A stretch of DNA of 64,000 nt from Viridothelium virens. Lineage: Eukaryota; Ascomycota; Dothideomycetes; Trypetheliales; Trypetheliaceae. The stretch lies in NCBI GenBank assembly GCA_010094025.1, contig ML991844.1, positions 62,001 to 126,000 of the forward strand. Direction: 5' to 3'. A program made the translations under genes and the position numbers. The notes under the pieces were generated by a model. The model saw only the letters and a list, made by a program, of their open reading frames with translations, did no database searches and was not told where the DNA came from. Shown piece after piece: positions 13,449 to 47,810 of the stretch. Position 1 is the stretch's first letter. Every line of letters starts with the position of its first letter.

Positions 13449-14336
13449 TCAGCCCCAGATCAAGTCAATGCGACGCCGGCGATCCCAAACGATTTCCGAA
13501 GTGGCTTTCTTTTTGAAGTGGACGATTCGATGTAATGGGATGAACTCGTCCTCCGTCGTCTCTACCTTCCAACTACCAAGTGGCATCTCCATGATGCCTA
13601 TGAAGCGGTCCTCATAGCCAACAAGAAAGTCGTCAACGCTAAAATCAGGATCGTATCGAATACGGCTCATGACTTCTCTTTCCGTGCGAAACTTCTTGCT
13701 TGACTTGGCTACCATGCAAGTCTTTTCAGAGTCACTACCAGCTAGTCGAGCAAGATCACCGGTTATTTCTTCTTGGTCAGGGCTCTCGGAATGCAATGAG
13801 TGAGTTAGCCTTACAGCGTTGGCCGCATCTGCATGCTGAATCAGTTTTGGTGCTGTAGCATGAAATATTTCCCGCTCTTCAACAGCGGCAGCGTCCGAAT
13901 TGATGTTGTCAAATAAGGCTGCCTCTTTCAGCGACATGGCATCTGCAGATAGCCATTCCTGGTGTTTGCGATCCACAAGGGGAGTTTCGTTTCGCTCGAC
14001 CGTCCTGATATAGACTGAAAGCAAATGCAAATTATCTCTAATAATAGGCTGGGCTTTGAGATATGTCATATACTGATCAAGTATGCCGTCAATACTCTCG
14101 CTATCACTCTCGAAATGGATGATATAGAAGACACAGTAGAGGGGATCCAAATGGTTGCCTGCTCTGACACCACGATTTTGCCACAACAGGGGCTTCGAAG
14201 AGCATTGACACTCCAGTTTATATAAAAGAGGGACAAGGCGTGGCTCGAGCCATCGAAGTACAAGGCTTGCGAAAGAGAGTGCGTCGTCCTGGAAGCGGAC
14301 TTCGATGAGGAGGTATCTCTCAAGTGGCGTAGCCAT
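13449..14336 (-). CDS. MJ1316/DUF504-domain protein
   Basis: An open frame of 295 residues counted from the ATG at 14336 ends in a clear MJ1316 (PF04457, DUF504) domain: VMSRIRYDPDFSVDDFLVGYEDRF, then a GIMEMPL segment, PLHRIVHFKKK and EIVWDRRRRIDLIWG at the extreme C-terminus. The domain is described as an RNA cyclic-group end-recognition module, and in animals it occurs in LENG9 with a 2'-5' RNA ligase-like domain. The N-terminal two thirds contain a segment around DQYMTYLKAQPIIRDNLHLL that I cannot place in a family. The frame stays open upstream to 14612, but that part is low-complexity. An intron near the N-terminus is possible, so the start is uncertain. RNA binding is an inference. Confidence 0.7.
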   Translation of the reverse strand: MATPLERYLLIEVRFQDDALSFASLVLRWLEPRLVPLLYKLECQCSSKPLLWQNRGVRAGNHLDPLYCVFYIIHFESDSESIDGILDQYMTYLKAQPIIRDNLHLLSVYIRTVERNETPLVDRKHQEWLSADAMSLKEAALFDNINSDAAAVEEREIFHATAPKLIQHADAANAVRLTHSLHSESPDQEEITGDLARLAGSDSEKTCMVAKSSKKFRTEREVMSRIRYDPDFSVDDFLVGYEDRFIGIMEMPLGSWKVETTEDEFIPLHRIVHFKKKATSEIVWDRRRRIDLIWG

Positions 14337-15513
14337 TTGCAGGATAAGAGTAGCTGAAGGATCAGAATTGGGAAGACTAGAGCAAATAAAAGCAAAAAAG
14401 AGGAGAGACAGAGAGAGGGGGGCTTTCAAACTTAAAAGTTTCACACGCCCGGTTGACTTCTCGTGAGTCACCGTGATGGGCAGTGCTGACCTGACACGAG
14501 TTTCGCGGGCAGGACCTTTATAGAGCATAGCCGCGGTGTTTGGTCCAACGCAGCCAACCAACGTTTGCAAATCTTTACCTCTGAGGGAGCAAAAGATTCG
14601 CTGATGAGTCAATTGTCTTGCTTCAGCGGGGTGGGGTCCATGTGCTTTGCAATGAAGCTTGCTAAGGTATTTTTATTCTGAAGGTGTTTAAAGTCGGTGA
14701 TACAACGCCTACTCTATTCGTGGATCAAAAGTACGATATCGGGTAATAAATCAAAGAGATGAGGTGACTTCTAGAAGACTTCAGATTACCTTCCATTATA
14801 CCAATCCTGGTTTCGGGCTCAGACCTTGGTTGGCCATATGGTGGATCTGGAGGTCGTATCGAAACTTCGGAGCCTTATAGGGTTCGGAAGGCAGGTAATT
14901 AAGGTATGCACGTAGGGTACAACGGAACCTGAAATTACCAACAAGCCTTGTGCGGTCACCGAGACCGAGAACGGACTGCATCCAGCCGCATCCCCTTCAT
15001 TACAGCCTAAATGATGAAAAGCGCAACTTCCATCCGAGCCTCTCGTGCCTCTCCACCAAGTCAGCTAGGAATCAGATCAGCATCGAATTCGTGACAAAGC
15101 CGCTCCCCCAACGCCTTCCCCGCCCCTCCACTCCGCTGGTCTTAGCCTCCCGTCCGCCTTGATTCGAAACGTCCAAAGCCGGCATTGGCCGAAATTCTAA
15201 CGGTGGACAAATCCTCCTCCTGGGACCATTCTTTACTAGGAAAGCGCAAATTACCCAAGGCAACTATTGCTCGCTGGAAAGAAGAGAAGTGCAACGTCTG
15301 AGGGCCGTGTCATTCGCCAACGCACTTCTTGCGACGTTGTTACGCCACACTGAGAGAAAAGGGAGGGTATACGGAGTAAGATGGCTAAGATCGCATGATT
15401 CATCTGGTCCAAGGTGCCTGCCGGTGGTCCCTATCGCAACGGATCGCACCGATTACTACGATAACAATCGATTGTCTTAAAGTGGGCAGTGAAGAAAGAA
15501 GCATTCACACACA
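14337..15513. other. divergent intergenic region
   Basis: This lies between the divergent MJ1316-domain gene and the cyclic-nucleotide/F-box gene, so both promoters should be here. The first 280 bp on the minus strand remain open (a Leu/Ser-rich stretch), which leaves the start of that gene open. Nothing else is recognised. Confidence 0.45.
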
Positions 15514-18447
15514 ATGCGCCGTCAGAGTCGGCCTGGCGGCGCGCTTCTTGCGAATAAGCCTTCTCTGAGCCCTGTACCTGATTCCGTATCTCTCATACGA
15601 GCTTTTGACTCGGAATCGAACCCGACTCGTCCAGTACGACCCTCTCCTCTTACTGCATCTACAATACAAGGCATTCCCCTCGACCTACTTGATCGCCTAC
15701 GATCCTTTCCGCTCTTCCAATCCGCGCCGGATTCCTTCTTGGCGGCAGTCGCGACGCATCTGCGACCCCAACTACACCAGCCTCATGACTACATTCTCAC
15801 GGAGGGTGACGATGCGAAGGCCATGTATTGGTTGGTGCGAGGAGTCGTCAGGGTGACCTCTCGAGATGGCGAGAGTACTTTTGCTGAGCTTAAGCCAGGC
15901 GCCTTCTTTGGAGAGATTGGAGTTCTCATGGATATGCCACGCACGGCGACAATTGTTGCCAAGATGAAGTCTCTAGTGGTCAAGTTGAACAAGGAGGATT
16001 TGCAAAAGGTCCTACCCAAATATCCAGAGATTGAGCTCGCGATCAGAGATGAAGCCAAGGAAAGGCTTCATATCCTGGAGAGGAAGAAGAAGGAAAGCGG
16101 CATACGTCCTGCGACGAATTCTACTAAAGCTGGACAGACAAGCAGTAAGCGACCACGTGATAGGATGGCTGGTGATGTCGAGATGGGGGACGCAGGGATT
16201 TTGCGAGACGGCGAAATTCTGAGCAATAAGAGAAGGAAATCACCGAGTCCGGGCTTGGCTGAAACGGCAGCATCTAGTGCTTTTGGAAGTGGTCCACGGA
16301 CGGTGCGACAGATTCTGAAGGAGTTGCCGCTTTTCTCTGGGCTGCCACCACGCGACCTTCACTTCCTCGGGCTGAATGTCCAGCCACGAACCTATCCCCC
16401 ATTTACTGATATTATCGAGCAAGAGTCGCAAGGGCGAGATGTATACTTTATTGTCAGTGGCGAGGTTGAAGTGGTTGCAGATCGCGGTCCGGTAGACAGC
16501 GCGGTCACGTCTCCCAAGCACGAGAACGGCCCCGGGAGGGCGAACAATAGAAGACAGCAACGCGTTGTTGCTCGTTTGAAGACTGGGCAATACTTTGGAG
16601 AGGTCACCAGCTTGGCGTTGGCACCCCGGCGAACGGCGACAGTCCGATCTATCGCTTCAGTTGAATGCCTGATGATCAGTGGTGACGTTTTGACTGAGCT
16701 TTGGGAACGATGTCCGCCAAATCTACGCCGCGAAGTCGAGCTCGAGGCGAGATCTCGTCTCAAAGCTTCCGATGATCTTGATATCCACATGCCAGATGCA
16801 TTGGACGGCACGCCACCTATCAACGAGCTAGAGATTGCAGACGCAGGATCGCGGATTCCAAAGAGACCAACGCCTCCCTTGGTTACAGTCTCAGAAAGCA
16901 GGATAGAGACATGGTCGAAGGAAGAAAAGCCCGTTGTTGAGCCCTTTGATCCGGACCCATTTCTTAATGCTGATCTGGATAACATTCGCTCCAAGTCGCG
17001 TCGAAGCTCAATAGCCCCTCCGACAGCGACGGTCGATAGCAACCAACCCCAGGGAAATGATTCTCAAGCACAGCAAACAACAGTGCCATGGTCAACAATG
17101 GCCATGCCTTCATCGCCACTCAAACCACGGGTGAAACATCATCCGAGTACCTCACCAGATAACGAATCTCCTAAACGAACTAAAACACTTTCTCGACGAC
17201 CTAGCCATTTCACGAAGGGAAGCCTTCCAGATACCGCCTTGATACAGATATTTCAATACTTGGATCTCCATGACCTCATGTGCCTCCGACTTGTTTCTCC
17301 GCATTGGTTAAAATTACTCGCAAATTCACCGGATATTCTTCACCATCTCGACCTCACCAAATATAATCGCTTCGTTACCGATCAGACCCTCATTCACGCG
17401 ATATGTCCATTTGTTGGACAACGACCTCGTACGGTAGATATCAGCAATTGCTTTCACGTAACGGACGAGGGGTTCAGCGCTCTTGCATCGACATGTGGGG
17501 CCAATGTAAAATCCTGGAAGATGAAGAGCGTCTGGGATATTACAGGCCAAGCTGTTCTCGAGCTTGTCAATAAAGCCCATGAATTAGAGGAGATCGACCT
17601 CAGCAATTGTCGCAAAGTCGGAGATAATCTCCTTGCACGCGTCGTTGGCTGGGTTGTCCCAGAAATGCCGCACCATCAACAACATCAAATGAACGGCCGT
17701 CCACGGCGGGGACACACGAAGCATGCACAGCCACAGCAACAGATACCACCTGGAACTGTCGTTGGCTGTCCGAGACTAACAAAGATTACACTTTCATATT
17801 GCAAACACATCACGGATCGCTCTATGGCGCACCTTGCCGTTCATGCCGCATCGCGCCTCGAGGAAATCGACTTGACCCGCTGCACCACTATCACGGACCA
17901 AGGCTTCCAGCACTGGAGCGTGTATCCATTTCCGCGATTGCACAGGTTATGTCTCGCCGATTGCACGTATTTAAGCGACCAGGCCATCATTTCACTCACG
18001 AACGCAGCGAGGGGTTTGAGGGAGCTGGATCTAGTGAGTCATTCCTCTTCTGTCTTCTATTATCTGGACTGATGTCATGCTGATTTACTATTGTGGTAGT
18101 CTTTCTGCTGTGCCCTGTCTGATACGGCTACCGAGGTGCTGTCGCTCGGCTGTCCTAACCTCACACATCTCAACCTCGCCTTCTGCGGATCCGCCGTCTC
18201 GGATGCCGCCCTTCGCTGCATTGGCCTTCACCTGCTTGAACTTAGAGAACTGTCAGTGCGTGGCTGCGTCCGCGTTACGGGAGTTGGGGTAGAAGCAGTC
18301 ATTGATGGCTGCAACGACTTGGAAGCCTTTGACGTGAGCCAGTGTAAGAATCTAACAAGGTGGCTTGAAGCTGGCGGTGTTCAGCGGAAAGGGGGGGCAA
18401 TCAAGTTTGAGACGGTGGCAGATGGGAAGTGGAGAGTTCATCGGTGA
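15514..18447 (+). CDS. cyclic nucleotide-binding, F-box and leucine-rich-repeat protein
   Basis: Two exons (15514-18033, 18100-18447; 66-bp phase-0 GTGAGT...GGTAG intron) give 955 residues. Two cyclic-nucleotide-binding domains come first, at about residues 64-180 and 269-410. Each has a phosphate-binding-cassette-like motif: FFGEIGVLMDMPRTATI in the first and YFGEVTSLALAPRRTATV in the second. An F-box follows at about 568-610 (LPDTALIQIFQYLDLHDLMC...SPHWLKLL), then AMN1/GRR1-type leucine-rich repeats (IDLSNCRKVGDNL, ITLSYCKHITDRSM, IDLTRCTTITDQGF) into exon 2. F-box plus LRR proteins are substrate receptors of SCF ubiquitin ligases. The cyclic-nucleotide module suggests that cAMP or cGMP could gate this one, but ligand binding is inference. 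The long linkers are Ser/Pro-rich and may be phosphorylated. Confidence 0.92.
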
Positions 18448-26534: not shown

Positions 26535-29492
26535 TTACTTGAGCCCATCCCCATGCTCCGTGTTCCCCTTTTTGGATATGGAAGATGATGCTCTCCTTTG
26601 CCCTTCCCTCGATCGCACTTCCTTTTCGTCCTCACTGGTCGGACTCGAGCTCCCGCTACCCATCCCATCTCCTACGACCCCGTCTCTTGATTCTTTCCGC
26701 AACCTTTCCGCCTTGTCTTTCAGGACTCGAGCTTCTTCGGCGGCCCGTTGCGCCCGTACCTGTTTCTTCCACATGGTTGCATAGCGGCCTTTTCTTGCGA
26801 GGAGCTGCTCATGATTGCCCTGTTCCGCAACCTTGCCTTCGTGTAGCACAAGAATCTGATCAGCCATAGTAATTGTACTGAGGCGATGGGCAATGACCAG
26901 CATGGTTCGGCCTTCAGCAAGAGTGGTGAGTGCCTCCTGGATGTGTTCTTCAGTCTCAGTATCCAATGCTGCGGTGGCCTCATCAAGCAGGATAATACGC
27001 GGATTCTTGAGGATAGTGCGCGCAATGGCTACTCTTTGCTTTTCGCCTCCGGATAGACGCAGACCACGTTCCCCAACTTTGGTTTGATAGCCATCTGGAA
27101 AGCCAAGTATCTTCTCGTGTATGCTGGCAGCACGACATGCCTCATGTACATCTTCTTCAGTTGCGCTGGGGTTTGCATATTTTAGATTGTACATGAGCGT
27201 TTCATTGAATAGGACGGTGTCCTGTGGAACCACACCGATGTGCCTTCGAAGGGATTCGATTGTCACGTCCTGAACATCCTCTCTATCCACGAGAATTCTT
27301 CCCGACTTCGCGTCGTAGAACCGAAAAAGAAGTCTGAAGACGGTTGATTTGCCTCCCCCTGACTCACCGACTAGAGCCGTCGTTGTGCCGGGTGGGCAGT
27401 GAAATTCGAGGCCGGAAAGTGCTGGCTTTCGTTCATCGTACGCAAATTGTACGTCTTGGAAGTGAATATCGCCCTCACAGGATGTCTTTTGTTGAGCTGT
27501 TGGGCTGTCGACAACCGTCGGCTCTTCCTTGAATAATTCCAACATTCGCTCCGAGTTGATCATGGCCGATTGAATCAAACGATAAAATGTACCAAAGAAG
27601 TTGAGTGGTCCTTGCAGTTGGGCAAAATATGTCAATAGCGACACGAACTTGCCGACTCTTCGCTGACCCGAAGTGACTTGATATGCGGCGATAAAACACG
27701 CGACCATGAGGCCTACCATGAAAACCAAGTTCTGCGTCACATTCATCAAGTTGAGGGAGAACAGTACATGGTACTCGGCCCTCTGATATTTGCTAACCGC
27801 TTCTCGGTAACGATTGAATTCGTAATCTTCAGCGTTGAAGTACTTCACCGTCTCATATGAAACCATGGAATCGTTCCTGATTCATGTCAATACTACTGAA
27901 CTGTGAGCAGTTGGGTACTTTTGAAAGACTGACTTAACTGCATCCTCTTCTCTGTCGGCATTGACCATTTGACGACGTATCTCTGCACGCCATTGGGCCA
28001 GGCGAATTGTGAGATAAATATACCAGAAAGTCACGACGGCTACAACAAGGGCATAGTATGCATCGAATTCGATGAGAAAGTAAGCAATGGCCACGCCTAA
28101 ATCGACGAGCATGGGGACCACCTGGAAAGTCACTTGTTCGAGGAATGTATTAATGGAATTGCCCTTTCCCAGAGCAGAGAGAACTTCACCAGTCTTTTTG
28201 CCCAGGTGAAAATCTAGACTCAACCCGTGAACATGTTCGAACGCCGCCACGGAAAGCTCACGGTACGAGTATTGGCTGATAGGAATCCATAGGGTAGACC
28301 GGAGAGCTCCGAGAAGTCCATTGCTTCCTTGAAGCAGTCGATAGAGGATGTAAAGACAAATTGCATCCCAAGGCATACGCACTGGCCCATTTTCTCCCGA
28401 AAGGTCGTCGGTTATTACTCCGACTTGATAAGGCACCAGTACGTTGATACCGCGCTGCAAAATAACAATGACGAAGCATATCACCACCAAGACCTGTAGT
28501 TTTCTATCCTTGGAAGGCCACAGATAGGGGAAAAACACCGAGTAACTCCGAAGGTATTCCCACCAACTCCGTGAAGGTGTGGAGGTTGGTCGACTCCATC
28601 CAGCTGGGGCCCCTTCATCATGCGCTTTCTTAGCAGGATGTGGCGCTGAGCCATAGCCATTCGCAGATCCATTCTCGGCGTGATGTTCGCTTAAAAGCCC
28701 TGTCGTCTCCTCAGGATCCTGTACCGAGCTATCTTTGGTCTTCCTCATGCAGGAAACGAAGAGGATGTAAAAGCTTATGATCGCAAGTAGTAAGATTATC
28801 CGTAGAATGTCAATTACGACCTCGGCGATCTCCCATTTCGTCATGTTCCATCTCAATGCTCCACCTCGCGGATTGCCAGCTACGGGTTCGTGATGTTCGC
28901 GCGTGTAAAGAGCCAATGAGGTCGCCAACAGAACGAGCTCCAGAAGTAAGGCCACACTCCAGGTAGCAAGATGCGCTACATTAGGCGAGGGTTTCCCATC
29001 GAGCAAAGAGATGACGAAGAGAGCGTATATGAAAAAGGACCCTATTATGTATATCTAACATTGACAGATTAGCTTTTACCCGGATTGAATTTCGACAATG
29101 TCGCTGCGTACGGCGTCTGCTTGACCACACCACCACCGTTCTTTGCGCATGATGAGCGCGTGCGCGATGACATTGACGGCATTCGCAATGAAGGTACAAG
29201 CAGCGAAGACGGATAACCAGTCGAATACCAGTTTCTGAAAACGAGTGAGAGTTGGCACTTCCGTCGAGGCTCTGGGTTTGTTTTGGTTCCTCTGTGGGAG
29301 TGGTTTGCCGCCGGGACCCGTGCCAGTGGGTGTGGGTGAGGTAGTGGACTGATCTTTTCCAGCCGTGAGCAAGCCATAAGCAGTGAATGCTGCAAGGAAA
29401 AACAGGAGGAGGAGGATGGGATAGGCATAGTGAAGGATCTTGAGGGTGCTCCGGGCGCCATGGTGAAGGGTCGAGGCGTCGACGAGGGCCAT
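26535..29492 (-). CDS. vacuolar half-size ABC transporter, HMT1 (ABCB6/ATM-like) type
   Basis: Three exons (29492-29112, 29054-27934, 27876-26535) with 57-bp introns give 947 residues. The N-terminal TMD0-like region spans exons 1 and 2 (ILHYAYPILLLLFFLAAFTA; IYIIGSFFIYALFVISLL; TWSVALLLELVLLATSLAL). The six-helix ABC membrane domain comes next, with NDSMVSYETVKYFNAE typical of the ATM/HMT subfamily. One nucleotide-binding domain has Walker A GESGGGKST (about 672-680), signature LSGGEKQR, Walker B IILLDEATAAL and H-loop VIAHRLST. Schizosaccharomyces HMT1 is a vacuolar transporter linked to phytochelatin and glutathione conjugates and cadmium tolerance. That role here is by family. The charged C-terminal tail is longer than in yeast relatives. 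The start is divergent from RTC1, 690 bp away. Confidence 0.94.
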
Positions 29493-44233: not shown

Positions 44234-46108
44234 ATGTTGGCAGACCTTCCCTTTGAGCTTCTCGCCCATATCGTAGCCCATCTATCCACCGCGCGTGCCG
44301 TTCGAGCTCTTTCTCTTACTTGCCGTACTTTGAAGGAATTTGTCGATCAGGAAGCATGGCGAATTTTTACGCACTCCCGCTTCCCCTCAATATCTACTCC
44401 TGGGTTATGGAAAGAGGCAGCCCATGTTCTCACGACCTTGTCGAGGAACTGGGATCGTCGTTCACTTGTTGCCAGATACCTGGAGCCTAATGGAGCCATC
44501 ACTACCCTTCCTACCGGAAATCAGATCCAAAGATGGAAGAGGCCCCAAGGCCAGAGCATGGGCTACCAACCTAGGATCGAAAGCTTTACCGAGTGGATCG
44601 GCCCCAAATGGATTGACCAAAAGGAACTCCTGGCTTGGAGCGCCGGTACTGAACTTGTCTTGCGGATCCAGCAGACAACACAAAGAGCTGCCCGTCAATG
44701 GCGGCGAGCTGCTTCCGATTCTCATCGATTATTCTGTCAGAACAGGTGGTTCACCTTCAAGTCGCCCGACACCAGCGAGGGAAGAGATGACATCACTTCG
44801 CTAAAGCTGCTGCGACCTTGGCAATGTGATGTCGAGTCGGTAATTGGCGAGGTTCAGCATGTAATCTTAGGGAGAGCCAACGGGGACCTACGTCGCTTGG
44901 AGTTTAATTTAACCTCACCTAGTGCGCCATATCAACAAGTATACGCGACGAGACGGCAAAGTGTATTGTCGATAGATGTCTCCCCATCATCCTCTCCACT
45001 ACTCGCTTCCTGTTTAGGTGACTCTCGAGTCACGTTATACAACGTGTATAATGACAAAACCTTTAACGAGCCGATTTCTGAGACTACACTGTCTAATTCA
45101 CAGCCGAATAGTAGGCTCTGGTCAACCAAGTTCCTTTCTGATACTTGTCTCGCTGTCGGTACAGGACCGTCGAGGAATCCTTTAAGCATTTACGACGTCA
45201 CCCCGACTGGCATTCGCCAATACTCTACCCGGAAATTGGATCAGCTCAGTTTGGAATATAGTGCAGAATGTACCTGGCCGTCCTCAACGTCCGTGTACGC
45301 AGTCACACCACTGCCATCTTCCTCAGTTGCGAGCGCTCTACCTGGCGAAGTTTTTCTTAGTGGTGCCTTTGACGGTAGGATTAGGCTTCATGATCTTCGT
45401 TCACCAAACGCAGCCGAGCAGTCGTATTTTGATGGTGCTGATGAGTCTGCTATCTACTCTCTTGCTACTGTTGGCCGCGAACGTCTAGCGGCGGGCACGG
45501 CGCGTCATAGTATGGTCAAGTTCTTCGATTTGCGCGTAGATGGTGGCCGCGTCTATCACTATATCGATGCTCTTGCACAGGAACGGAAAAATCGAAACGA
45601 CAAATTGCGTTCATCTGATGTAATTGCAAGATTTACGGACGAAGCTACAGAGTCCGGGTTCAAGAACCTGGACGGCGGAGCAGGCTGGAACTTATTCCTA
45701 AATCCACGTGAGATGCATGCTGCACCTGGCCGTGGTCACTCGACCTGGTCGTCTCGTCGTGCTGTCGAATCGCCAGTATATTCGCTTTCCATGCCATCTA
45801 CATATTCACCAACCCTCTTCGCTGGCGTTGAAAATGCTCTTGTGCAGCTTGACTTTGCTTCGGTGCTGGACCGGCATCCTGACCCCACGCACGCTACCAG
45901 TATGAAATTTGATGCGACTGGCGACGTAGATATTAGACAAACATGGAACAGAAAAAGTGATGTGCTCAATTTGGGCATGTATGAGCAGATGAATGGCATA
46001 AATGCAGAGACGCTGCGGCTAAAGGTCCAAAAGAGTCTTCAGAGCAAGGACTGGGAAGTGAGACCCAATGGTCTTGATGAGCGCTGGCGAGATAGCAGTG
46101 AACTATGA
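44234..46108 (+). CDS. F-box protein with WD40-like propeller
   Basis: An intronless frame of 624 residues from the ATG at 44234. The F-box is at the extreme N-terminus: MLADLPFELLAHIVAHLSTA with RALSLTCRTLKEFV. WD40-like blades follow from the middle onward (VLSIDVSPSSSPLLASCLGD, FLSGAFDGRIRLHDLRS, RLAAGTARHSMVKFFDLRV). The blades are weak, as in other fungal proteins of this kind. F-box plus WD40 proteins recruit substrates to SCF ubiquitin ligases through Skp1. The substrate cannot be inferred. The upstream open segment to 44123 lacks an ATG in this frame. Confidence 0.88.
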   Translation: MLADLPFELLAHIVAHLSTARAVRALSLTCRTLKEFVDQEAWRIFTHSRFPSISTPGLWKEAAHVLTTLSRNWDRRSLVARYLEPNGAITTLPTGNQIQRWKRPQGQSMGYQPRIESFTEWIGPKWIDQKELLAWSAGTELVLRIQQTTQRAARQWRRAASDSHRLFCQNRWFTFKSPDTSEGRDDITSLKLLRPWQCDVESVIGEVQHVILGRANGDLRRLEFNLTSPSAPYQQVYATRRQSVLSIDVSPSSSPLLASCLGDSRVTLYNVYNDKTFNEPISETTLSNSQPNSRLWSTKFLSDTCLAVGTGPSRNPLSIYDVTPTGIRQYSTRKLDQLSLEYSAECTWPSSTSVYAVTPLPSSSVASALPGEVFLSGAFDGRIRLHDLRSPNAAEQSYFDGADESAIYSLATVGRERLAAGTARHSMVKFFDLRVDGGRVYHYIDALAQERKNRNDKLRSSDVIARFTDEATESGFKNLDGGAGWNLFLNPREMHAAPGRGHSTWSSRRAVESPVYSLSMPSTYSPTLFAGVENALVQLDFASVLDRHPDPTHATSMKFDATGDVDIRQTWNRKSDVLNLGMYEQMNGINAETLRLKVQKSLQSKDWEVRPNGLDERWRDSSEL

Positions 46109-47154
46109 ACTAAATTATTTTCCAACTGGTGTTTATTGCTTTGTCACAAGCACTCTGCCTCACTTTTTATGATGAAACCAGATGAATGAACAACTTTCCC
46201 AAGACAGTGACAGAATGAGTGCTGTGTGAGAAGGCGATTCTTTGAGAAGGGGTACTTTTGTATTTGCGTCTTATGCGAAGATAGCCGAGAGTACTGCTTT
46301 TATACTAATTGTGCAATGCCATTAAGAGAGCGCGTTCTGTCATGGCCATGTGGTGACCAACATGATTTTTCTCGATTGAAGATCGACCAGGCTGCGGAAG
46401 CAACGCATAGAGACCACCAATCGTCTATCAGAACGATAAACCAATGATCTTACTTCCTCATCGTATTCAAATGGAGTGCGGGATGAGGTAACGGACCACT
46501 GACACAGAGCTCAGTTAGATGATGCATAATTGCGGCAACCCGACGGCATGCCGGGCATGGGTTGAATGGTCGACCTCGGATCTATTCATTGTTCAGTATG
46601 GAAGTTAGCTGTCTGGTTCATATACTGGCTGGTCATAATATCTCTTGCTCCTTTTCAGAGAAAGACGAAAGTAGAAGCTACGAAATAAACAAGGGTCCTG
46701 GGGTTACTATCTTGGTGGTCTTTCTCGGCACGTCTGGCACTGTCCGTTCTCAAAAGTCCTGGAGAAAGATAGGATAAAAGATAAGAAGATGTGAAAGGAT
46801 ATAGACTAAAATTTTTGGCACATCCTAAATATTGTGGGACATGGGAGTAGCGCCACCTATATACAGAGCTGCGCAGAGGTCCATGCGCATAGCCTGGTGA
46901 CACATTACATGACCTTTCATCTCATCTCCAAGCACAGAGATCAGAAGCACAGCTGCATAGAATAATGGATGAGAATAGAAAGCTGTAGATATGCATAAAT
47001 TCAATCGCAAAATCATAAAAAATAATTCTCATGAAAAGGACTTTTTGGTAAAAAAAAAAAGAGACGAAAGCTAGATAGAAGAGATGAAAAGTGAAAATAT
47101 TAAAATTATCAATTATTTATATAATTTTACATGCTCTGAAGCCCAGAATGCGGC
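46109..47154. other. intergenic, AT-rich toward the tRNA
   Basis: This is 3' flank of the F-box gene, then increasingly AT-rich sequence with an A10 run at about 47050, typical of the upstream flank of a Pol III gene. No coding evidence is seen. Confidence 0.5.
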
Positions 47155-47299
47155 GGCATTGTGGCCGAGCGGTTATGGCGCAGGTTTCAGGATTATCCGT
47201 GTTTACCTGTGGGAAACTTCGTGGGTTCGAGTAAGTTGTATGAGTGAATTGTTTTGTTTACATCCGTAATAATTGTGGACGCAGATCCCACCAATGTCA
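47155..47299 (+). tRNA. tRNA-Leu(CAG) with anticodon-loop intron and a 54-nt T-loop insert
   Basis: Acceptor stem GGCATTG (47155-47161) pairs with CAATGTC (47292-47298), with one G-U pair. Discriminator A is 47299, as expected for Leu. D stem is GCC/GGC (47164-66, 47177-79). Anticodon stem is CAGGT/ACCTG (47181-85, 47205-09). Anticodon CAG is at 47188-90. A 12-nt intron (47192-47203) sits at the canonical 37/38 position. The variable arm is 47210-47220. T stem is GTGGG (47221-25) / CCCAC (47287-91). The T-loop is interrupted: TTCGA (47226-30), then 54 nt (47231-47284), then AT. With both inserts removed, a 79-nt type II tRNA results. A-box TGGCCGAGCGG is at 47162-72; the insert breaks the end of the B-box. 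The gene may be functional, spliced by an unusual route, or an interrupted pseudogene. Confidence 0.85.
47231..47284 (+). other. 54-nt insert in the tRNA T-loop, GTAAGT...GCAG
   Basis: The insert begins GTAAGT and ends GCAG, a textbook spliceosomal donor and acceptor, and its length equals that of nearby mRNA introns. Its inner sequence is AT-rich, with a weak TAAT branch-like site about 16-18 nt before the end. Two other placements, shifted right by one or two bases, give loop TTCGAGT instead of TTCGAAT and would not be GT-AG, so the exact borders are not proven by sequence alone. Confidence 0.75.
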
Positions 47300-47309
47300 A
47301 TTGCTCTTC

Positions 47310-47318
47310 TTTTTTTTT
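47310..47318 (+). terminator. Pol III oligo-T terminator
   Basis: A run of nine T begins 11 nt after the tRNA discriminator base. That is the normal place and form of a Pol III stop, and it supports reading the tRNA 3' half at 47285-47299 as part of one transcription unit with the 5' half. Confidence 0.75.
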
Positions 47319-47810
47319 CCCCTCCCAGGTCAACATCATGTATCAGAGGGTCCCAAGTCTTTTGAATTTCTGAGAACAGTACCCTGCTTTTTTCTTTTTT
47401 GCTTCAGTGTGTCATAGCGAGGGTATTCACTGACGGTAGAATATTATTTGGTTATAGAACTAATGGAGTGCAACCTCAACTCTACTGCCAGAATCTTTTG
47501 AGTCAACTCATGTCTATTTGCGACGTAGCGATAATCACACTGGTTTAGAGGTAAGCGATGCTTTGCTTTCTTGAGGAATTACTAGTGGTGGATTGGTCGA
47601 GCCTTAAGCTCCGAATAGCGGGCAGCTCCGCGGATGCGCTCCTCCCAACTAACGTCTAGAGCTCCTCGCGCTCCTCTACGATATGACTATTTCATCTTCC
47701 TTCTGTCTTTCCCTATGCCTCGCCTGTCATTCTCGGTTACGGAGTCGAGATATGGTGAACGTGCTACGCTCCATACTTTGATTGATTTACGATAGAAGCT
47801 GGCCCACAGA
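47319..47810. other. intergenic between tRNA and GH76 gene
   Basis: About 490 bp that should hold the GH76 promoter. No gene, repeat or motif is recognised. Confidence 0.5.

Follow-up and report, generated by a model that had tools for sequence, protein, structure and literature searches.

A tRNA-Leu(CAG) gene interrupted at 37/38 and by a 54-nt GT-AG insert in the T-loop, possibly a spliceosomal intron

Layout of the tRNA-Leu(CAG) locus

The stretch of DNA analysed (the window, 64 kb) carries, according to Pfam, cyt-4 domains with an RNB domain, a fungal transcription factor domain, a fungal rhodopsin domain and GH76, among others, and from these genes we infer that it is nuclear DNA of a filamentous fungus. 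An open frame at 13449-14672 (-) contained the MJ1316 RNA cyclic group end recognition domain (PF04457) near its C-terminus, and an ABC transporter gene at 26535-29492 (-), with ABC_tran and ABC_membrane in 26535-27881, had two predicted introns of 57 nt each.

A tRNA-Leu(CAG) gene was located at 47155-47299 (+), flanked by an F-box frame that ends at 46108 and by a GH76 frame on the other side, and was interrupted twice, by a 12-nt intron at 37/38 and by a 54-nt insert in the T-loop. The parts of the locus are as follows.

47118-47125, +, TATA-like element TATATAAT, from -37 relative to the tRNA start
47155-47191, +, 5' exon: acceptor 5' strand, D-arm, anticodon stem 5' strand, anticodon CAG (47188-47190) and G37
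47162-47172, +, A-box TGGCCGAGCGG, 11/11 against TRGYNNARNNG
47192-47203, +, ordinary 37/38 tRNA intron, 12 nt, given by ARAGORN on the joined flanks
47204-47230, +, middle exon: position 38, anticodon stem 3' strand, variable arm, T-stem 5' strand GTGGG (47221-47225) and T-loop TTCGA (positions 54-58)
47224-47234, +, B-box as it stands in the DNA, GGTTCGAGTAA, 9/11 against GGTTCGANTCC, the last 4 letters being those of the insert
47231-47284, +, T-loop insert, 54 nt, GTAAGT...GCAG, between positions 58 and 59 (alternative register 59/60: TAAG...GCAGA)
47266-47273, +, GTAAT / ATAAT, weakly resembling a branch site, with the candidate A at 47269 (15 nt from the insert 3' end) or at 47272 (12 nt)
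47285-47299, +, 3' exon: T-loop AT, T-stem CCCAC, acceptor CAATGTC and discriminator A
47310-47318, +, T9 run, Pol III terminator-like, 10 nt behind the discriminator

In its unjoined form, the gene was not recognized as a tRNA. ARAGORN, run with three option sets (with and without intron mode) on the unspliced gene and 100 nt of each flank, returned no tRNA, nor did it for the whole 64-kb window (bacterial code), and an Rfam tRNA match was absent from the whole window at the gathering threshold and at E<=0.1, and from the locus at E<=1. When the flanks of the insert were joined, ARAGORN in intron mode gave a complete cloverleaf of tRNA-Leu(cag), 79 nt in its mature form and with the 12-nt 37/38 intron; without intron mode, the same letters were misread as tRNA-Pro(agg). 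The CAG anticodon, the A discriminator and the full cloverleaf thus come together as a tRNA-Leu(CAG) only once the flanks are joined. The acceptor, anticodon and T stems were fully paired in the joined form (ARAGORN). The variable arm, the 11 nt between the anticodon stem and the T-stem, was drawn without a stem by ARAGORN and by the folds, and it seems short for a Leu tRNA, of which a long (class II) variable arm with a stem is expected. An Rfam match to SodB_thermometer at 47295-47387 scored 20.5 bits against a gathering threshold of 98 and was taken as chance.

The T-stem and the acceptor stem also have their partners across the insert. A 12-nt partner of the T-stem GTGGG plus the acceptor GGCATTG with at most one G-U pair occurred at a single place on both strands of the window, which is the locus itself, and in none of 20 simulated strands of 64 kb. 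With any number of G-U pairs allowed, there were 10 such places on both strands of the window and 93 in the simulated strands. An earlier note on this DNA had described a twice-interrupted tRNA-Leu(CAG) with an insert in the T-loop and had judged the stem pairing too long for chance. Both points are borne out: the coordinates, the 54-nt length and the two flanks agree, the joined cloverleaf is complete, and the window has no second partner with one G-U pair or fewer.

The promoter boxes were scored against consensus letters for the A-box and the B-box. The insert starts after A58, so that its first letters fill positions 59-62 of the B-box GGTTCGAGTAA; the GT of the insert occupies 59-60, and the box loses only its last two C. 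Matches of 9/11 were found 44 times on both strands of the window, so this score shows just that the core of the B-box was spared. The earlier view that the insert splits the B-box was therefore overstated, the core being uncut and 9/11 letters being kept, although the last two C are indeed lost. A perfect B-box-like GTTCGATTCC at 15612-15621 (-), on the opposite strand within a cNMP-binding/F-box frame (15493-18072), was put down to chance, since neither ARAGORN nor Rfam gave a tRNA in the window. An upstream TATA box is described as conserved and important for the tRNA genes of some plants and fungi (PMC3978253).

Form of the T-loop insert

Eight registers of excision leave a 7-nt loop, and three of the eight keep the consensus T-loop TTCRANY, which gives two distinct joined products. 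In the 58/59 register, the insert is exactly GTAAGT...GCAG, with GT...AG ends and a consensus donor, and the joined T-loop is TTCGAAT. In the 59/60 register, the joined T-loop is TTCGAGT and the joined product reads TTCGAGTCCCAC. Among the 127,892 intervals of 54 nt on both strands of the window, nine had the form GTRNGT...YAG, the insert included, and one had the form GTAAGT...CAG, which is the insert. The GT-AG form claimed for the insert therefore proved real and far above chance. The GT-AG form by itself is no proof of splicing.

For comparison within the window, introns were taken from a home-made gene finder, trained on 15 chosen open frames, with a donor score favouring GTAAGT and allowed lengths of 40-160 nt. 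Of its 16 gene models, 11 contained introns, for a total of 16 introns, all of which had a frame-shifting length or an in-frame stop. The predicted introns were 42-105 nt long, a range that includes the 54 nt of the insert, and one of them was also 54 nt. Their donors were GTRNGT in 8/16 and GTAAGT in 2/16, in statistics that lean to the consensus by construction of the finder. The GC content of the insert (0.35) lies at the low edge of that of the predicted introns (0.35-0.53). The insert contained no exact YTRAY branch site, with near matches in GTAAT, ATAAT and TTTAC. Among the predicted introns, YTRAY at least 15 nt behind the donor was carried by nine and missing from seven of the 16, and shuffled cores of the insert carried it in 38% of cases. 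Judged from these letters, the missing exact branch site would weigh mildly against a spliceosomal reading.

The insert did not fold better than its shuffles (z 0.52), and neither did the precursor (z -0.30). The free fold of the precursor reached -39.2 kcal/mol compared to -37.1 kcal/mol with the cloverleaf enforced, 2.1 better, and it breaks the T-stem. In precursor folds, a small GGA/TCC hairpin was seen at 47190-47200, formed by the first bases of the 37/38 intron and the end of the anticodon loop.

As for traces of origin, no second copy of the insert was found in the 64-kb window. The flanks of the insert showed no exact direct repeat of more than 4 nt, which speaks neither for nor against a pseudogene. 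The heptamer ATTGTGG, shared by the tRNA start (47158) and the region near the insert 3' end (47272), was rejected as a trace of duplication because it occurs 18 times on both strands of the window. Repeats near the locus held nothing bearing on the insert, and exact-piece scans of viral contigs gave 0 matches. A variable-gap pattern scan of contigs from other genomes yielded at least 116 bacterial or archaeal stretches; the 14-letter core is expected hundreds of times by chance in a collection of this size (hand estimate), and none of these stretches was used.

Weighing the explanations for the insert

The reading that best fits the anatomy, the restored cloverleaf, the splice-site letters and the length match is that the insert is a GT-AG intron cut by the spliceosome from a Pol III transcript, and we give it about an even chance. 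On this reading, the T-loop of a nuclear tRNA-Leu(CAG) gene would have gained an mRNA-type (GT-AG) intron, the probable route being either reverse splicing or the arrival of an introner-like element. The gene would still be transcribed by Pol III through the TATA-like box, the intact A-box, a 9/11 B-box helped by letters of the insert, and the T9 run. The spliceosome would then remove the 54-nt insert to leave the T-loop TTCGAAT, the tRNA endonuclease would separately remove the 12-nt 37/38 intron, and the mature tRNA would be used by the cell. Somewhat more tentative, at a little short of an even chance, is the fuller claim that this nuclear fungal tRNA gene depends on two unrelated splicing systems, with the tRNA endonuclease acting at 37/38 and the spliceosome in the T-loop, and that the insert's first bases replace part of the internal Pol III B-box.

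The main rival is a young insertional pseudogene: a 54-nt piece, intron-like or random, would have inserted into one tRNA-Leu(CAG) gene out of several redundant ones and would never be removed, leaving a dead gene that has not yet had time to decay. We regard this as unlikely, yet its share is considerable, because a review supposes that the short D- and T-arm insertions of eukaryotic tRNA genes, found mostly in one of many synonymous genes, are for the most part pseudogenes (PMC4090602). The missing exact branch consensus fits such a dead gene, whereas the three stems, the A-box and the T9 run are all intact. Taking 40-50 positions as constrained (our estimate) and all of them as undamaged, the 95% bound is about 0.06-0.07 damaging changes per site since the insertion, a bound that still leaves room for a young pseudogene. 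The chance that a random insert shows GTRNGT...YAG in any one register is about 7e-5 (9/127,892) and has to be multiplied by the two distinct joined products. Nevertheless, the intact GT-AG letters count solely against a random insert, since an intron-derived insert that is not removed would look identical.

If the insert were an ectopic tRNA intron of the bulge-helix-bulge type, as in Cyanidioschyzon merolae or archaea, the endonuclease would cut at 59/60 and leave the T-loop TTCGAGT. Archaeal introns are known at this position (PMC4090602); here the entire T-stem serves as the outer helix, each bulge can have 3 nt, and three of the four central pairs form (TTCG/CGCA). However, about 22% of random inserts would form at least three of four central pairs with G-U allowed (hand calculation), and three of four also formed in the register after four loop bases, which fails to restore the T-loop, so the signal is weak. 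The inner helix at 59/60 has one of five pairs, the 58/59 register has two of four central pairs, a strict 3-4-3 motif was found at neither 58/59 nor 59/60, and the GTAAGT...CAG form is left unexplained. We consider this origin improbable. Thus, among the options of the earlier note, a spliceosomal-type intron fits best, an endonuclease-removed one finds no support at 58/59 and weak support at 59/60, and an insertion that killed the gene keeps the lesser but considerable share given above.

Slightly more improbable still is an intron of a Pol II transcript that merely crosses the tRNA, for example in the 5' leader of the downstream GH76 gene. Fungal 5' leaders can hold introns, and the first long open frame after the tRNA on its strand is that of GH76, with its first ATG at about 47811, some 510 nt behind the tRNA (gene finder start 47961). 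Against this, the T9 run lies between the tRNA and the GH76 gene, the boundaries of the insert coincide with those that restore the T-loop of the tRNA, and the three + strand frames through the joined site run for 59, 78 and 91 codons from stop to stop. A protein-coding exon junction at the insert is not supported, the longest of these frames being the 91-codon one. A group I intron has a U before its 5' splice site; here the cut would follow A (58/59) or G (59/60), and a minimal group I intron was set aside on this letter. Minimal group I introns in the SSU rRNA genes of Phialophora are given as 63-75 nt (PMC3160393).

The enzymes that splice tRNAs are described as separate from the spliceosome (PMC13149111). 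If the spliceosome does excise the insert as a GT-AG intron from a tRNA made by Pol III, then such pre-tRNAs are able to enter spliceosomes, and intron gain by insertion into transcripts of any kind would gain support. Such genes could also escape tRNA finders, as ARAGORN missed the tRNA-Leu(CAG) here; for tRNAscan-SE 2.0, a search for noncanonical introns is described for archaeal-model candidates (PMC8450103). Among the open-access literature matches listed, no title or abstract start named a spliceosomal intron in a tRNA gene.

Comparison with known systems

An mRNA-type intron in the U6 snRNA genes of fission yeast was reportedly found by Tani and Ohshima in 1989 and 1991. Fission yeast U6, which is made by Pol III, is described as carrying an mRNA-type intron (PMC10484740). 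U6 is itself a part of the spliceosome, with the intron near its catalytic bases, whereas the host here is a tRNA with no such proximity. The introner-like elements of Dothideomycetes are presented as spliceosomal introns newly inserted in fungal genes (PMC4457414), a paper in which the word tRNA is absent. Many near-identical genomic copies would be expected of such an element, and the 64-kb window holds no second copy of the insert.

Ectopic T-arm introns with bulge-helix-bulge motifs are reported from nuclear tRNA genes of C. merolae, where processing was traced by RT-PCR (PMC9602550), and excision of non-canonical tRNA introns in the Guillardia theta nucleomorph is reported as confirmed by RT-PCR (PMC4090602). 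In both, as would hold for this locus if the insert is an intron, a further T-arm intron is described besides the 37/38 intron (PMC9602550, PMC4090602). However, the introns of C. merolae tRNA-Ile(UAU) are described with hBHBh' motifs (PMC9602550), whereas the insert here fails the strict motif and resembles an mRNA intron, and the T-arm introns given for G. theta are 3-24 nt long (PMC4090602) compared to 54 nt here.

The rDNA of lichens is reported to hold spliceosomal introns, one of them of 57 bp, with removal by yeast from a Pol I transcript (PMC8527467). Like the proposed T-loop intron, these introns are ectopic and of mRNA type, similar in length (57 bp) and hosted by a structural RNA; unlike it, they belong to rRNA and Pol I rather than to tRNA and Pol III. 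Taken with U6 in fission yeast (PMC10484740), the lichen rDNA introns (PMC8527467) indicate that fungal spliceosomes act on RNAs other than those of Pol II.
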